From: Hyphomicrobiales bacterium
GTDB lineage: Bacteria; Pseudomonadota; Alphaproteobacteria; Rhizobiales; Beijerinckiaceae
Reading direction: 5' to 3'
Length of the DNA stretch: 64,000 nucleotides
Assembly (NCBI GenBank): GCA_900470095.1
Contig: UBZM01000016.1
Span: forward strand, 124,746 to 188,745
Shown here: positions 8,529 to 23,165 of the stretch, piece by piece
Numbering within the stretch: position 1 is the first letter of the stretch
Layout: each line of letters opens with the position of its first letter
The notes under the pieces: model-generated
Told to the model about the DNA's origin: nothing
The model's database searches: none
The model's input: only the letters and a program-made list of their open reading frames with translations
Translations under genes and position numbers: made by a program

Positions 8529-9071
8529 TCACATAGCCTCAGGGCCACGGCTCATCGCCGCGATGCCCGTGCGCGAGACTTCGGTGAGCCCGACCACGGT
8601 CATCAGCTTGATGAACCGCTCGATCTCCTCGGTCGAGCCCGTCAGCTCGAAGACGAAGGAGGTCAGGGAGGCATCGAGCGTCCGCGCGCCAAAAGCCGCC
8701 GCAAGCCGCATCGCCTCGACCCGATGGTCGCCCTTGCCGACGACCTTGACCAAGGCGAGCTCGCGCTCCAGCGCCTCGCCCTGCAGCGTCAGGTCGACGA
8801 CCCGGTGCACGGGCACCAGCCGGTCGAGATGCGCCTTGATCTGCTCGATGACGTTGGCGGTGCCGGACGTGACCACGGTGATGCGCGAGATGTGCTTCTC
8901 GTGCTCGGTTTCCGAGACGGTGAGGCTCTCGATATTGTAGCCGCGGCCCGAGAACAGCCCAGCGATGCGGGCAAGAACGCCCGGTTCATTGTCGACGATC
9001 ACTGCCAACGTGTGGCGAGCGACCGGCTGGATCTTGGGAGCGTTCGGATAATGCGTGGCTGACGTCGGCAT
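8529..9071 (-). CDS. ilvN: Acetolactate synthase small (regulatory) subunit
   Basis: A 180-residue regulatory subunit (called IlvN or IlvH) that binds the large subunit and confers valine feedback inhibition. The N-terminal ACT domain is clear (HTLAVIVDNEPGVLARIAGL, RGYNIESLTVSETEH), and the C-terminal domain includes VKVVGKGDHRVEAMRLAAAF. Its ilvB partner lies on the same strand but is separated by a racemase and a GST gene, an unusual spacing for this pair. Confidence 0.95.
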   Translation of the reverse strand: MPTSATHYPNAPKIQPVARHTLAVIVDNEPGVLARIAGLFSGRGYNIESLTVSETEHEKHISRITVVTSGTANVIEQIKAHLDRLVPVHRVVDLTLQGEALERELALVKVVGKGDHRVEAMRLAAAFGARTLDASLTSFVFELTGSTEEIERFIKLMTVVGLTEVSRTGIAAMSRGPEAM

Positions 9072-9105
9072 CGGACACCTGCAGGAGCTGAAGCGGAATT
9101 CGGAA

Positions 9106-9795
9106 CTAGACGTGACGGAGATTGGCGGTGGCGGGCTCGTCGACCTCGTCCTGGGCTACGATCCAGGGTTCGGCCAGGGCGGCCTTCAGCCAGTCCCGAT
9201 AAGAGGGATGGTCGAGTACCGCGGCCATATAGGCGGCACTGACCGGATCGACCGGGATCGCGTAGGTATCGAGTCTGGTGACGATCGGCGCATACATGGC
9301 GTCGGCTGCGGAGAAGGCGCCGTAGAGGAAAGGGCCTCCTTCCGCCTCGCCGAAGCGGGAGCGAGCCTCGCACCAAAGCGCGGTGATGCGTGCGACATCC
9401 CTGGCGACGTCGACCCCACGATCGCGTGCAGCAAAGCGCTTGCCGAGATTCATCGGACAGGCCCGGCGCAACGCAAAGAAGCCGGCATGCATCTCGCTGG
9501 ACATGGCACGGGCATGGGCTCGCGCCGCCCGGTTCCTCGGCCAGACCCCGAGGTCGGGATGGCTGTCATGCAGATATTCCATGATCGCGAGCGTCTCCCA
9601 CGTCGCGATATCCCCGTCGACCAGCGTCGGCACGGTGCCGCCGCTGCCGGGAGCCTCGGCGAAGATCGCCTCCTTGAAGCCGGGCGCGTCGAGCAGGACG
9701 AGCGTCTCATCGAAGGCAATGCCCTTGGCACGGAGCAGGAACCAGGCCCGCAACGACCATGACGAGTAGCACTTGTTTCCAATCAGGAGCTTCAT
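9106..9795 (-). CDS. Glutathione S-transferase family protein
   Basis: A 229-residue GST-like protein. The N-terminal thioredoxin-fold domain has the active-site region GNKCYSSWSLRAWFLLRAKG and the cis-proline/Ser-binding segment GGTVPTLVDGDIATWETLAI; an all-helical C-terminal domain follows. The start is the ATG at 9795, overlapping the stop of the racemase gene by four bases (ATGA); the longer frame upstream is antisense noise. It lies between the racemase and ilvN and may be co-transcribed with the branched-chain genes. The substrate is unknown. Confidence 0.85.
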   Translation of the reverse strand: MKLLIGNKCYSSWSLRAWFLLRAKGIAFDETLVLLDAPGFKEAIFAEAPGSGGTVPTLVDGDIATWETLAIMEYLHDSHPDLGVWPRNRAARAHARAMSSEMHAGFFALRRACPMNLGKRFAARDRGVDVARDVARITALWCEARSRFGEAEGGPFLYGAFSAADAMYAPIVTRLDTYAIPVDPVSAAYMAAVLDHPSYRDWLKAALAEPWIVAQDEVDEPATANLRHV

Positions 9796-10499
9796 GCCGC
9801 CTGGCTCGCCATTTCCTGGCTGAAATCGAGTGCGGCTTCGACATGCAACGCCGTCGTGTCGAAGACCGGGATGTCGAAATCGGCCTGCGAGACCAGGAGG
9901 GTGATCTCGGTGCAACCAAGGATCACGCCATCGGCGCCCTGCCTTACGGCCGCTGCGACGATATCGAGATAGCGCGCCTTCGAGGCAGGCTCGATCCGGC
10001 CACGGCAGAGCTCCTCGTAGATGATGCGATGGACATCGTCGCGTTGTTCCGCATCAGGAACCATGGCCTCGACGCCGAATGCGGCGAGCCGCTCCCGATA
10101 GAAGGCCTGCTCCATCGTGAAGCGCGTGGCCAGCAGCAGCGGCCGCCGCGACGGGCTCTTGCGGATCGCCGTCGCGGTCACGTCCGCCAGATGCAGGAAG
10201 GGCACGCGTGTCGCGGCCGTGATCCGGTCCGCGAGCTTGTGCATCGTATTGGTGCAGAGCAGGATACAGTTCACACCCGCCCGCTCCAGCCGGATGGCGC
10301 TGTCGGCCAGGAGATGGCCGGCCGCAGCCCAGTCGCCGCTCGCCTGCATCTCGGCGATCGGTGCGAAATCGAGCGAATGCAGCAGCACATCCGCCGAGTG
10401 CAGCCCGCCCCGAAGGGCGCGCACCCGTTCATTGAGCAGCCGGTAGTAAACCGCAGTCGATTCCCAGCTCATGCCGCCGATCAGGCCGATCGTGCTCAT
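9792..10499 (-). CDS. Aspartate/glutamate racemase family protein
   Basis: A 235-residue member of the cofactor-independent amino-acid racemase family (YgeA/RacX-like). The N-terminus MSTIGLIGGMSWESTAVYYR and both catalytic-cysteine motifs are present: LLCTNTMHKLA near residue 82 and LGCTEITLLV near residue 195. Such enzymes interconvert L- and D-amino acids, often with broad specificity. It begins 30 bp after ilvB and overlaps the GST gene. Its place inside a branched-chain biosynthetic unit suggests, but does not prove, an amino-acid substrate related to that pathway. Confidence 0.88.
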   Translation of the reverse strand: MSTIGLIGGMSWESTAVYYRLLNERVRALRGGLHSADVLLHSLDFAPIAEMQASGDWAAAGHLLADSAIRLERAGVNCILLCTNTMHKLADRITAATRVPFLHLADVTATAIRKSPSRRPLLLATRFTMEQAFYRERLAAFGVEAMVPDAEQRDDVHRIIYEELCRGRIEPASKARYLDIVAAAVRQGADGVILGCTEITLLVSQADFDIPVFDTTALHVEAALDFSQEMASQAA

Positions 10500-10529: not shown

Positions 10530-12290
10530 TCAGACAAGCTGCTTGCCCTTGGCGTCGATGATATCGCCCGTATTTCCCTCGAAGTCGGGCAGGATCATCT
10601 CGTTATGAGCCTTGCCCGACGGGATCATCGGGAAGCAGTTCTCTTCCTTCGCCACGAGGCAGTCGAAGATCACCGGCTTTGGCGTATCGATCATCTCGCG
10701 GATCGCGTCATCGAGCTGCTCCGGATCCGAGCAGCGGATGCCATGGCCGCCATAGGCTTCGGCGAGCTTCACGAAATCGGGCAAGGAAGCTGAATAGCTC
10801 TCAGAATAGCGCCCGCCATGCAGCAGTTCCTGCCACTGCCGGACCATACCCATGTATTCGTTGTTCAGGATGAAGATCTTGACCGGCAGCCGGTGCTGCA
10901 CTGCCGTCGACATCTCCTGCATATTCATCAGGATCGATGCTTCGCCGGCGATGTCGACGACGAGGGACTTCGGATGGGCCATCTGCACGCCGATCGCCGC
11001 CGGCAGGCCGTAGCCCATGGTTCCAAGTCCGCCGGAGGTCATCCAGCGGTTCGGCTCCTGGAAGTGGAAATACTGTGCTGCCCACATCTGGTGCTGGCCG
11101 ACCTCAGTGGTGATGTAGGTGTCGCGGTCCTTGGTCAGTTCATAGAGCCGCTCGATCGCGTATTGCGGCTTGATGACAGCGCCGGACTGCTTGTAGCCAA
11201 GGCTGTCGCGCGCGCGCCAACCGTCGATCTGCCCCCACCAGCCTTTCAAGGCCTCCTTGTCGACCTGCGGGCTGGTCTCACGCCAGATGCGAACCATGTC
11301 CTCGAGCACATGTGCGCAATCGCCCACGATGCCGATATCGATCTTGACGTTCTTGTTGATCGAGGACGGGTCGATATCGACATGGATCTTCTTCGAGCGC
11401 GGCGAAAAGGCGTCGAGCCGGCCGGTGATGCGGTCGTCGAAGCGCGCGCCGATATTGATCATGACGTCGCAGTCATGCATCGCCAGATTGGCTTCGTAGG
11501 TGCCGTGCATGCCCAGCATGCCAAGCCATTGCTTGTCGGCTGCGGGGAAAGCGCCCAGACCCATCAGCGTCGAGGTGACGGGATAGCCGGTCAGCCGCGC
11601 CAATTCGCGCAGCAGCGCGGAAGCGTGCGTGCCCGAATTGATGACACCGCCACCGGTGTAGAAGACCGGCCGTTTGGCCTTGGCCATCAGCTCGACCGCC
11701 GCCTTGATCTTGTTGAGGTCACCCTTGACGGTCGGACGATAGGTCTTGTGCTGGTTGTCGCGCGGACGGGTGTACTCGCCCTTTGCGAACTGAATATCTT
11801 TCGGGATGTCGACGACGACCGGCCCCGGACGACCATTGGCCGCGACATAGAACGCCTCGTGCAGGATGCGCGGCAGATCCGCGATGCTCTTCACGAGATA
11901 ATTATGCTTGGTGCAGGATCGCGTGATGCCGACCGTATCGCATTCCTGGAAGGCGTCGGAGCCGATCAGATGCGTCGGAACCTGCCCGGTGATGACGACA
12001 ACCGGGATCGAGTCGAGCAATGCGTCAGTCAGCCCGGTGACGGCGTTGGTCGCACCGGGACCGGAGGTCACCAGGACGCAACCAACCTTGCCCGACGAGC
12101 GTGCATAGCCCTCCGCTGAATGGACGGCACCCTGCTCGTGCCGGACCAGAATGTGCTTCACCTTGTCCTGGAGGAAGAGCGCGTCATAGATCGGCAGCAC
12201 AGCGCCGCCGGGGTAGCCGAACAGGTGTTCGACGCCTTGATCCTGAAGCGCGCGGACGACCATTTCCGCGCCGGTCATCATCTCGCTCAT
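10530..12290 (-). CDS. ilvB: Acetolactate synthase large (catalytic) subunit
   Basis: A 586-residue thiamine-diphosphate enzyme making acetolactate or acetohydroxybutyrate, the first common step of valine, leucine and isoleucine synthesis. The catalytic Glu region is FGYPGGAVLPIYD, then RHEQGAVHSAEGYARSSG. The PYR, central and PP domains follow in order. In the PP domain the motif reads IAGEASILMNMQEM, with Glu where the GD-x-S motif of many homologues has Asp as Mg2+ ligand. The QWQELLHGGRYSESY segment is typical. The gene is preceded by an attenuator (12337-12444) and followed by racemase, GST and ilvN genes. Confidence 0.97.
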   Translation of the reverse strand: MSEMMTGAEMVVRALQDQGVEHLFGYPGGAVLPIYDALFLQDKVKHILVRHEQGAVHSAEGYARSSGKVGCVLVTSGPGATNAVTGLTDALLDSIPVVVITGQVPTHLIGSDAFQECDTVGITRSCTKHNYLVKSIADLPRILHEAFYVAANGRPGPVVVDIPKDIQFAKGEYTRPRDNQHKTYRPTVKGDLNKIKAAVELMAKAKRPVFYTGGGVINSGTHASALLRELARLTGYPVTSTLMGLGAFPAADKQWLGMLGMHGTYEANLAMHDCDVMINIGARFDDRITGRLDAFSPRSKKIHVDIDPSSINKNVKIDIGIVGDCAHVLEDMVRIWRETSPQVDKEALKGWWGQIDGWRARDSLGYKQSGAVIKPQYAIERLYELTKDRDTYITTEVGQHQMWAAQYFHFQEPNRWMTSGGLGTMGYGLPAAIGVQMAHPKSLVVDIAGEASILMNMQEMSTAVQHRLPVKIFILNNEYMGMVRQWQELLHGGRYSESYSASLPDFVKLAEAYGGHGIRCSDPEQLDDAIREMIDTPKPVIFDCLVAKEENCFPMIPSGKAHNEMILPDFEGNTGDIIDAKGKQLV

Positions 12291-12336
12291 GTCGTTCTCC
12301 TCGGGGGTCTTCGGTTCAGTTCAGGGAAAATGGGCA

Positions 12337-12361
12337 ATAAAAAAGGCCCTCGGAGGGGCCT
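12337..12361 (-). terminator. Attenuator (intrinsic terminator) in the ilvB leader
   Basis: On the minus strand AGGCCC..GGGCCT forms a GC-rich stem followed by TTTTTT, 47 bp before the ilvB ATG. It lies between the leader peptide and the structural gene, the position of a transcription attenuator. Confidence 0.8.
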
Positions 12362-12365
12362 GGGC

Positions 12366-12420
12366 GTGCGCTGGCGTCAGGGGCCAAGCGGTTTGTTCAA
12401 CCGCCCCCCTACCAGCGCAC
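12366..12420 (-). promoter_or_regulatory. Leader stem-loop overlapping the leader peptide codons
   Basis: The arms GTGCGCTGG (12420-12412) and CCAGCGCAC (12374-12366) pair perfectly and enclose a second hairpin, GCGGTT with AACCGC (12404-12388). The 5' arm is made of the Val-Arg-Trp codons at the end of the leader peptide, so a stalled ribosome would disrupt it. The next hairpin downstream is the terminator. Confidence 0.65.
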
Positions 12421-12444
12421 CCGTACGAGAATAAGCTTGCGCAT
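12409..12444 (-). CDS. ilvB leader peptide (attenuation peptide)
   Basis: An 11-codon frame, MRKLILVRVRW, with five of eleven codons for Leu, Ile or Val, ending in TAG. It lies 118 bp before ilvB and directly ahead of a long stem-loop and an intrinsic terminator. Leader peptides rich in the regulated amino acids, with a terminator between peptide and gene, are the established arrangement for attenuation of branched-chain amino acid operons in proteobacteria. Too short to be found by length-based gene calling. The sensing role is inferred from codon content and layout. Confidence 0.75.
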   Translation of the reverse strand: MRKLILVRVRW

Positions 12445-12608
12445 TGCGCCCGACACCCTTTGCAATAGTTGCGGCACGCTAGACGACCGATTTGGCATGG
12501 TCAAGCCGCAAAAGCTCATGGCCGTCAGTTCCGAAAATCCCATGACGAAAGGGAACACTTTTTCAAGAACGGCCTTGCTAAGGTCCTTGCGCGCGAAACG
12601 GGGCCGCC

Positions 12609-16383: not shown

Positions 16384-17904
16384 TCAGTTCATTGTGACTG
16401 CGACGAACCGGACCTCGCCCTGCCCGTTCGCGACCAGAAGCAGAGCCGACTTCTTGCCCTCCTTCTTCAGAGCATCCAGGCGCTTGGTCACGTCCTCCGG
16501 CGAGTTCACCGCCTCCTGGCCAACCTCGACGATCAGTTCACCGATCGAAATGCGCTTATCGGCGGCGTTGGAATTGGGATCGACCTTAGTGATCACCACG
16601 CCCTTGGTGCCATCCTTGATCGAGTAGCGCTTCCTGAGCTCGTCCGTCTGCTGCGAGAGTTCCAGACCGAGTGCCGTGGTCACGGCGGGCTTGGCCGGTT
16701 CGGCATTCGGCTTGGCGGAGGCCTGCTGGACCTTCTCACCATCCTCGAGGCGGCCGAGCTTGACCGTCTTGACGACTTCCTTGCCCTTGCGGACCACAGT
16801 GATCGGCGCATCCTTGCCGACCGCCGTACCGGCGACAATCCGCGGCAGATCGCGCGAATCCTTCACTTCCTTGCCGTCGAATTTGACGATGACGTCGCCA
16901 ACCTCAAGACCTGCCGGCTTGGCCGGGCCCTTGTCATCGATGCCGGCGACGAGCGCGCCGCGCGCGGTGCCGAGACCGAGTGCCTCGGCGGTGGCGTCGT
17001 CGACGCTCTGGATACGGACGCCGAGCCAGCCGCGGCGGGTCTCGCCGAACTCACGGAGCTGATCGACGACATTGACCGCCAGCGACGAGGGAACCGCAAA
17101 GCCGATGCCGACGGAGCCGCCGGTCGGCGACAGGATCGCAGTGTTGATACCAATGACCTCGCCGGCCATGTTGAACAGCGGGCCACCGGAATTGCCCTTG
17201 TTGATGGCCGCATCGGTCTGGATATAGGTGTCGTAGGGGCCCTGCTGGATATCGCGGTTGCGGGCCGAAACGATGCCCGACGACACGGAACTGCCGAGGC
17301 CAAACGGATTGCCGATCGCCATGACGGGATCGCCGATCCGCATTTTGTCGGAATCGCCGAATTTGACGGCGTCGAGCGGCTTGTCGTGCTTCACGCGCAG
17401 CACCGCGAGATCGACCTTGGTGTCCTTGCCGATGATCTCCGCCTTCAGGCGCAGGCCACTGTTGAAGATCACCGTGATCTCGTTGGCGTCGCCGATGACG
17501 TGGTTGTTGGTGACGATGATGCCGGAAGGATCGATCACGAAGCCCGAACCGGCCGATTGTGACCGTCGCTGCTGCGGCGGCTGGCCCTGGCCCTGCTGGC
17601 CCTGACCGCGGCGGTTGAAGAACTCCTCGAACAGATCGCCAAAGGGCGTATCGGGGCCGAGCTGCGGCAGTTGCGGCAGGTTGCGGCTGCGCGTGTCGCT
17701 CGTCGTGACGGCCGAGATGTTGACCACCGCCGGCATCACCCGCTCGGCCAGGTCGGCGAGCGAAATCTGCCCCTGGACCAGTGGCGACGCTGCCATCGGC
17801 GGCTGGGCCACCGCGGGGGCGGCCAGCAGCGGCAGCGCTGCGACGCCGGCCACGAGCGCGGCCCGCGCGAGCCCGGAAGCGGAAACGGTTTTCAGTGCCA
17901 TCAA
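16384..17904 (-). CDS. degP: Periplasmic serine protease of the Do/HtrA family
   Basis: A 506-residue protease-chaperone of the cell envelope. A signal peptide of about 33 residues ends at AVA. The trypsin-like domain carries the triad His (VTNNHVIGDANE), Asp (KVDLAVLRV) and Ser (INKGNSGGPLFN); two PDZ domains follow, the first with RGWLGVRIQSV and the second with GVVITKVDPNSNAA. A Gln/Gly-rich insertion sits before the catalytic His, typical of the LA loop. It lies at the end of the hflK-hflC-DUF2065 group, whose products also control membrane protein quality. The symbol is given for the family; paralogues may exist elsewhere. Confidence 0.93.
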   Translation of the reverse strand: MMALKTVSASGLARAALVAGVAALPLLAAPAVAQPPMAASPLVQGQISLADLAERVMPAVVNISAVTTSDTRSRNLPQLPQLGPDTPFGDLFEEFFNRRGQGQQGQGQPPQQRRSQSAGSGFVIDPSGIIVTNNHVIGDANEITVIFNSGLRLKAEIIGKDTKVDLAVLRVKHDKPLDAVKFGDSDKMRIGDPVMAIGNPFGLGSSVSSGIVSARNRDIQQGPYDTYIQTDAAINKGNSGGPLFNMAGEVIGINTAILSPTGGSVGIGFAVPSSLAVNVVDQLREFGETRRGWLGVRIQSVDDATAEALGLGTARGALVAGIDDKGPAKPAGLEVGDVIVKFDGKEVKDSRDLPRIVAGTAVGKDAPITVVRKGKEVVKTVKLGRLEDGEKVQQASAKPNAEPAKPAVTTALGLELSQQTDELRKRYSIKDGTKGVVITKVDPNSNAADKRISIGELIVEVGQEAVNSPEDVTKRLDALKKEGKKSALLLVANGQGEVRFVAVTMN

Positions 17905-22761: not shown

Positions 22762-22824
22762 GAGCCGGCGAAATTGCTTCGGATGGAGTGACGATGCTCT
22801 CTTTCCCCGCGCGCTCCGAGTGCC

Positions 22825-22830
22825 TATATT
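22825..22830 (+). promoter_or_regulatory. Possible -10 box of ssrA
   Basis: TATATT lies about 60 bp before the recognisable acceptor piece of the tmRNA gene. A poor -35 (TTTCCC) lies about 17 bp upstream. Suggested only by position. Confidence 0.35.
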
Positions 22831-22837
22831 CAGTTTG

Positions 22838-23165
22838 CCACTCGCAAGAGCGGCTATGGCGATAAACGAACGTCGAAATAAGCCTTTCGGACCCGGGGGC
22901 GGTACCCGGCGCCTCCACCAGAGCCCGTACGCGATTCGCGAGACGGGTTCCGGCGGGGGCGAAATAGGATCGACGAGGGTGTAAAGGTCGTTCTTTTGCT
23001 CGGCATGGTTCCGCCGTTATCGGGCCATTGCATAGTTGCCAACGACAACAATGCTCGGGTTGCTGTCGCCGCGTAAGCGGTGCTGGTTCCCAAACCAAAG
23101 TCCTTACGTTTAGCCGCGTAAGGCGGGGCTCGGAGGCGCCTGGCAACAGAAGCCTCCACTTTTTT
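22838..23165 (+). ncRNA. ssrA: tmRNA, circularly permuted two-piece form
   Basis: The permuted alphaproteobacterial layout is clear. The acceptor piece comes first: T-arm CCGGG-GGCGGTA-CCCGG, acceptor strand CGCCTCC and encoded ACCA ending at 22920. A 34-nt internal spacer (22921-22954) follows, then the coding piece, beginning with the matching acceptor strand GGGGGCG at 22955. The two strands pair over 7 bp including the G3-U70 wobble read by alanyl-tRNA synthetase. A second long-range helix joins TAAAGG/CGTTC of the coding piece with CCTTT/GAACG of the acceptor piece. The tag frame at 23038-23076 encodes ANDNNARVAVAA then TAA. The 5' end is approximate. sspB follows directly. Confidence 0.93.
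23132..23165 (+). terminator. Terminator of ssrA
   Basis: GGAGGC and GCCTCC pair across 14 nt and are followed by ACTTTTTT. It ends the tmRNA precursor about 57 bp before the sspB start. Confidence 0.8.

Follow-up and report, generated by a model that had tools for sequence, protein, structure and literature searches.

The window analysed here, a stretch of 64,000 nucleotides from a Hyphomicrobiales bacterium of the family Beijerinckiaceae, carries on its minus strand ilvB, the gene for the large subunit of acetolactate synthase, with ilvN (small subunit) and ilvC (ketol-acid reductoisomerase) farther downstream in the same direction. An Asp/Glu racemase-family gene (9792-10499) separates ilvB from ilvN, together with a glutathione S-transferase-like gene (about 9106-9777), and in our view the presence of two extra genes inside the ilvB-ilvN interval (window 8529-10499) is unusual for an ilvBN pair. 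Upstream of ilvB lies a compact leader comprising a short open reading frame rich in Leu, Ile and Val codons, a long stem enclosing an inner hairpin, and an intrinsic terminator (Table 1). A reading made from the sequence alone had described these elements as an attenuator, and its leader frame, stem and terminator coordinates all match the sequence; it also placed the terminator just upstream of the ilvB start, which holds, with a distance of 48 bases after the last T rather than the 47 it gave. Elsewhere, positions 22798-23160 of the window hold a permuted tmRNA gene of alphaproteobacterial type, as expected for the class.

Table 1. Features of the ilvB leader region, in window coordinates
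Feature	Coordinates	Strand	Basis or remark
Leader peptide ORF MRKLILVRVRW, stop TAG	12444-12409	minus	ATG at 12444, TAG 12411-12409
Regulatory codons CTT ATT CTC GTA (Leu-Ile-Leu-Val)	12435-12424	minus	Codon conservation and bias
Long stem, 5' arm GTGCGCTGG	12420-12412	minus	Overlaps the final leader codons; pairing in relatives
Long stem, 3' arm CCAGCGCAC	12374-12366	minus	Perfect pairing with the 5' arm GTGCGCTGG
Inner hairpin	12379-12410 (limits approximate)	minus	Predicted fold
Candidate antiterminator 5' arm GGGGGGC	12403-12409	minus	Complementary to 12359-12353; not clearly effective in folding of the window
Intrinsic terminator, AGGCCCCTCCGAGGGCCT (12361-12344) and TTTTTT (12344-12339)	12361-12339	minus	Pattern scan, conservation
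Probable ribosome-binding site AAGGG of the leader	12456-12460	minus	Read off the sequence
-35-like element TTGACC of the predicted promoter	12504-12499	minus	Comparison of upstream regions
-10-like element CTAGCG of the predicted promoter	12482-12477	minus	Comparison of upstream regions
ilvB, acetolactate synthase large subunit, regulated gene	10530-12290, start 12290	minus	Pfam
Full-length match to RF02502 Atu_C8, sub-threshold	12328-12448	minus	27.9 bits, E 8.9e-4, gathering score 50

The terminator pattern alone is unremarkable, being expected 0.8 times per 500 bases, which is near the one observed. Stability of the whole leader fold was dropped as evidence, since the 171-base fold lay only 1.3 sd below shuffles and was equaled or bettered by 24 of 200 of them. 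A joint rule, requiring a short ORF with at least four Leu, Ile or Val residues in five codons followed by a terminator, found no match in 20 dinucleotide-shuffled windows versus two sites in the real window, the second of which is the 3' end of a long gene ending at 16384. That the leader exceeds chance follows mainly from its conservation, in 58 of 58 same-genus loci, and from the pairing of its stem in relatives.

By IlvB, the closest named relatives belong to Bosea, at 91% and 90% identity, and the window itself is very probably Bosea. Our genus set comprised 61 genomes, with ilvB found in 60; two whose match was located at the end of a contig or close to it were left out, giving 58 loci including the window. 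A second set held 80 upstream regions from named genomes, found via IlvB. One automatic rule recovered a leader and terminator before ilvB in 111 of the 138 upstream regions overall, namely in all 58 same-genus regions (the window counted) and in 53 of the 80 from named genomes. Two Bosea loci among these 53 (L009 and L010) apparently duplicate genus-set loci L123 and L136, leaving 51 leaders outside the genus set, among which Bosea sp. 117 (L033, 77% IlvB identity) was counted. By main clade we mean the 53 genus leaders that remain when the deep members L141-L145 are set aside. The rule at times takes an upstream start codon (e.g., L023, L054, and L066), so that peptide lengths there are upper bounds. 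Relatives lacking the peptide or terminator, which the sequence-only reading had named as evidence that would count against it, did not occur in the genus, where both are kept in 58 of 58 loci, but 27 of the 80 named-genome regions fail the rule: seven of these have the leader motif, 19 have no motif that the simple pattern could find, and one has no upstream sequence. Some lineages, so far as this pattern indicates, would thus have either no leader or something that it misses. At locus L078, upstream of position 1696, the ilvB leader is missing the long-stem 3' arm and the 5' part of the terminator, and the peptide ORF adjoins GGGGGCCTTTTTT; this truncation may be an assembly fault, the record being a MAG. 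In genome G083, a second ilvB homologue of 64% identity (L184, G083:C1049) has its own attenuator, so that this genome carries two attenuated ilvB-like genes.

Conservation of the Leu/Ile/Val codons upstream of ilvB in relatives, which the sequence-only reading had proposed as a check, was borne out by the main clade: codons 1 to 3 are ATG CGC AAG, codon 5 is ATT and codon 7 is GTA in 53 of 53 leaders, codon 6 is ATC or CTC (Ile or Leu) in all 53, and residue 4 is Leu in 49 of them. Residue 8 is free to vary, with six different amino acids across the same leaders. The invariant GTA at Val7 compares with a share of 0.9% among the 223 Val codons of eight window genes, which use ATT for 8% of their Ile and CTT for 7.5% of their Leu codons. 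In leaders from beyond the genus, GTA accounts for 63 of the 98 Val codons within the runs. Attenuator leaders are known for biased codon use, though passages of PMC1183508 call rare-codon choice alone an oversimplification.

The long stem covaries both between families and within the genus; covariation in the stems was the other check in that earlier proposal. In an arm-swap test of the 51 sequences outside the genus set, a leader's own arms scored a mean of 24.1 versus 17.5 for swapped arms (sd 0.55), and none of 200 swaps scored above 18.8. The 49 distinct rows of the genus had 97.7% of their cells paired; this percentage, the covariation score and the six cells changed on both sides were each reached by 0 of 500 shuffles, and two of the five measures, the number of both-side-changed pairs and the number of pair types, were reached by 182 of 500. 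Because the genus rows are related, more weight attaches to the comparison between families. The mixed-family alignment was left out of the pair counts, as stems were out of register between families, and arms were compared there by script. The inner hairpin varies among leaders in both sequence and length.

A generic promoter scan returned no sigma-70 site, and a comparison of upstream regions was used instead. With a permissive pattern, TTGAC followed at suitable spacing by a TA-containing -10-like hexamer was present upstream of the leader in all 58 same-genus loci, the hexamer being (C/T)TAGCG in most, and transcription in the window is accordingly predicted to start near 12470, giving a 5' UTR of about 26 bases. 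In 54 of the 58 loci the predicted -10 ends 31 to 32 bases upstream of the leader ATG; in three deep members it ends 8 bases before the ATG, and in a fourth 14 bases, or 8 if an ATG six bases farther up is used. Outside the genus set this distance is 8 to 9 bases in 18 of 51 leaders, many of them of Rhizobiaceae type, and 12 of the 51 have no promoter-like match upstream. Loci with the short distance of 8 to 9 bases include L059-L062, L072, L074, L079, L085, L087, L142, L143, and L145. Such spacing suggests leaderless translation of the leader peptide in some relatives, with both this and the 5'-UTR form occurring in the genus.

The position of the stop codon also differs among groups. In the fold predicted without a ribosome, it lies in the inner-hairpin loop in 45 of the 51 outside leaders (with four more at most 3 bases away) and in all five deep same-genus loci, versus none of the 48 distinct main-clade rows, and the distance from stop to terminator is 47 to 54 bases in the main clade versus 28 to 45 elsewhere. 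Main-clade leaders end at an earlier TAG; an in-frame stop 12 to 18 bases farther on is found in 20 of the 53, the window included (TGA 12399-12397, in the inner-hairpin loop and in frame with the leader), and none occurs before the terminator in the other 33. On this comparison, the stop codon has moved out of the inner-hairpin loop in 53 of the 58 same-genus loci.

With a leader peptide, regulated codons, a protecting stem, a terminator and promoter-like hexamers all present and conserved before ilvB, the attenuation reading holds up well, and we consider it very likely that the element is a ribosome-mediated transcription attenuator of ilvB; the leader, its codon bias, the covariation of its stem, its terminator and its position were all established by sequence and comparison. 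Attenuation of the Caulobacter ilvBN operon, with pausing at tandem Ile and Val codons, is described in a passage of PMC4117421 that cites Tarleton et al. 1994, and as far as that passage allows a comparison, the Caulobacter crescentus attenuator shares with the window a leader peptide of branched-chain amino acid codons, a rho-independent terminator, ilvB as the first gene and the same bacterial class. The layout recurs in two Phenylobacterium loci (L063 and L066), whose peptides end in ILVLVGRP. An alphaproteobacterial ilvB leader peptide is stated to have been described previously in a passage of PMC1273637 citing Vitreschak et al. 2004, and the window element is very probably that leader; the main Bosea clade differs from the leaders outside it in having its stop codon before the inner hairpin, not in the loop. 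Because both Caulobacter ilvB attenuation and this leader peptide have already been described, the ilvB leader is an ordinary, well-conserved case of an attenuator of known kind.

No leader or riboswitch family of Rfam reached threshold in the window. The family RF02502, named "Rhizobiales sRNA Atu_C8" and typed in Rfam as "Gene; sRNA", not as a leader, resembles the element in its position before ilvB and in aligning over its full length (positions 1-122 of 122), but the score stays below the gathering score, so that the window is not a formal member, and the family carries a small-RNA label. The family was found above threshold directly before ilvB in 11 of 20 loci searched. A search that was independent of ilvB and used stricter filters, covering 150 genomes of the order and 14 control genomes, gave matches in 76 of the 150, with 22 of these over the cut-off, and none in the 14 controls or in the window's own genome. 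From 78 matches we fetched 30 loci (L153-L182), and because 29 of the 30 lie directly before ilvB, Atu_C8 is apparently the attenuated ilvB leader. A literature search, with most subscription papers outside its reach, found nothing linking Atu_C8 or an Agrobacterium small RNA to ilvB. The exception, L157:1490-1620 (G187:C2:433741-433861), has a complete branched-chain amino acid leader, read by eye as MIAIDMVVVGRRMGTAA, with stem and terminator before a gene for a Bcr/CflA-family MFS transporter, not ilvB. The ilvB gene of G187 has its own leader besides this copy, and in the 13 genomes of its genus, which gave 14 RF02502 matches, the other 13 all precede ilvB.

The typing of RF02502 raises the alternative that the locus is mainly a small RNA gene, the terminated transcript acting in trans with leader peptide and attenuation secondary. 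Precedent exists in rnTrpL/peTrpL of Sinorhizobium meliloti, presented in passages of PMC7298713 and PMC10117765 as an attenuator RNA with roles in trans. According to the latter, the trpL leader RNA begins at the leader AUG and is translated without a 5' leader, a likeness to the 18 of 51 outside-genus ilvB leaders whose -10 lies so close to the ATG; it differs in its Trp codons, its position before trpE and its known activity in trans, as well as from the window in the predicted 5' UTR of the latter. We nevertheless consider it unlikely that the element is mainly such a gene, given that 29 of 30 matches from a search blind to ilvB fall directly before it and that the codon run and covarying stem explain much of the conservation. 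Use as a small RNA and use as an attenuator are not mutually exclusive.

For the attenuator, the course of events that we infer, from start site through stalling and antiterminator formation to the amino-acid response, would run as follows. Transcription would start upstream of the leader, as the promoter-like sequence indicates, and a ribosome would translate the leader peptide. With enough charged tRNA for Leu, Ile and, most of all, Val (codon GUA), the ribosome would reach the stop codon and leave, whereupon the long stem would form, the terminator would stop transcription before ilvB, and a short leader RNA would be released. With Val, Leu or Ile scarce, the ribosome would stall on CUU AUU CUC GUA and cover the 5' arm of the long stem, freeing the G-rich stretch from the stop codon onward. 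In most leaders of the genus this stretch complements the terminator 5' arm (in the main clade typically AGGGGCC with GGCCCCU), and their pairing would allow the polymerase to read into ilvB.

We simulated this course by masking the footprint of a ribosome on each leader codon in turn and folding the RNA left over, both at equilibrium and in a version truncated before the terminator 3' arm. In the window, the long stem was shortened only by a stall at Leu6 and, above all, at Val7. Opening of this stem, which the earlier proposal ascribed to a stalled ribosome, does not suffice alone; a competing antiterminator is required. At equilibrium, the window terminator kept a probability of 0.98 to 0.99 at every ribosome position. 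In the truncated RNA, pairing of its 5' arm with upstream sequence was 0.68 without a ribosome, 0.30 to 0.64 on the regulatory codons and 0.53 at the stop, which is no clear switch, apparently because extra G residues strengthen the competing inner hairpin; with 25 bases of 5' UTR added, it was 0.99 without a ribosome, at Val and at the stop, and the region upstream of the leader paired with the terminator arm both here and in L090. Across the 58 genus leaders, mean pairing in the truncated RNA rose from 0.61 without a ribosome to 0.91 when the last regulatory codon occupied the A site, and stood at 0.41 for a ribosome at the stop. At equilibrium, 25 of the 58 had a stall at which the terminator probability dropped below 0.5. 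With the 25-base 5' UTR, a stall effect of at least 0.3 was seen for 24 of the 48 main-clade leaders, for none of the five deep members and for 4 of the 51 others, and the sign was opposite in 4 of the 51.

Covariation of the antiterminator was not significant, its score being reached by 65 and its paired cells by 71 of 500 shuffles, and the main-clade segment was matched almost as well by terminators from other groups as by its own (17.3 versus 19.3). In the five deep members and the four outside groups (51 leaders), complementarity to the terminator 5' arm was no better than shuffled, and in all four outside groups it lay below the shuffled mean. A stall had little mean effect on terminator-arm pairing in these outside leaders. 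A classical region 2:3 antiterminator was looked for in other Rhizobiales and not found. An antiterminator strong enough to register in the folding is visible for roughly half of the genus leaders; the window gives no clear sign of one, and other Rhizobiales give none. Its formation here we infer.

That the fold model predicts termination in the window at all ribosome positions, and that 0 of 51 outside-genus leaders lose the equilibrium terminator at a regulatory stall, would also suit a constitutive terminator beside an incidental short ORF, by which the leader would insulate ilvB or fix a fraction of read-through with no amino-acid control. This we judge very unlikely, as it leaves aside a Leu/Ile/Val run with rare GTA and, close behind it, the 5' arm of a covarying stem, both conserved in many families. 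The equilibrium model is moreover insensitive, because of seven known E. coli attenuators only pheL has a terminator that does not stay above 0.5 at every regulatory stall, so that equilibrium folding with a blocked footprint is of limited value as proof of a switch. The truncated-RNA measure performed better on these controls, with six of the seven pairing more when stalled than at the stop; it was flat for ivbL and unclear for the window. A riboswitch-type element binding a ligand directly without a ribosome, to which a structured, conserved leader with a terminator might also point, is extremely improbable, since conservation resides in codons and stems, the inner hairpin is variable, unlike a ligand-binding pocket, and no Rfam riboswitch family was found in the window.

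Returning to the ribosome-mediated attenuator, we would also raise a more speculative and on balance rather improbable extension, in which the terminated Rhizobiales ilvB leader is a stable, widely occurring small RNA that acts in trans, as RNA or peptide, like rnTrpL/peTrpL, in which it is a movable module sensing branched-chain amino acids, as the G187 copy before a Bcr/CflA-type transporter may indicate, and in which leaders outside Bosea may antiterminate without a conventional antiterminator hairpin. Our comparison suggests that the Rfam family now labelled sRNA should be re-described as an ilvB attenuator leader, and it exposes a gap as to how a stalled ribosome would prevent termination in those Rhizobiales leaders that show no antiterminator better than chance. 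For the cell, the switch should allow leucine, isoleucine, and valine to be made when they are scarce, and the leader extends a known regulatory family by a well-supported case, together with a comparative set that carries both codon and stem evidence.
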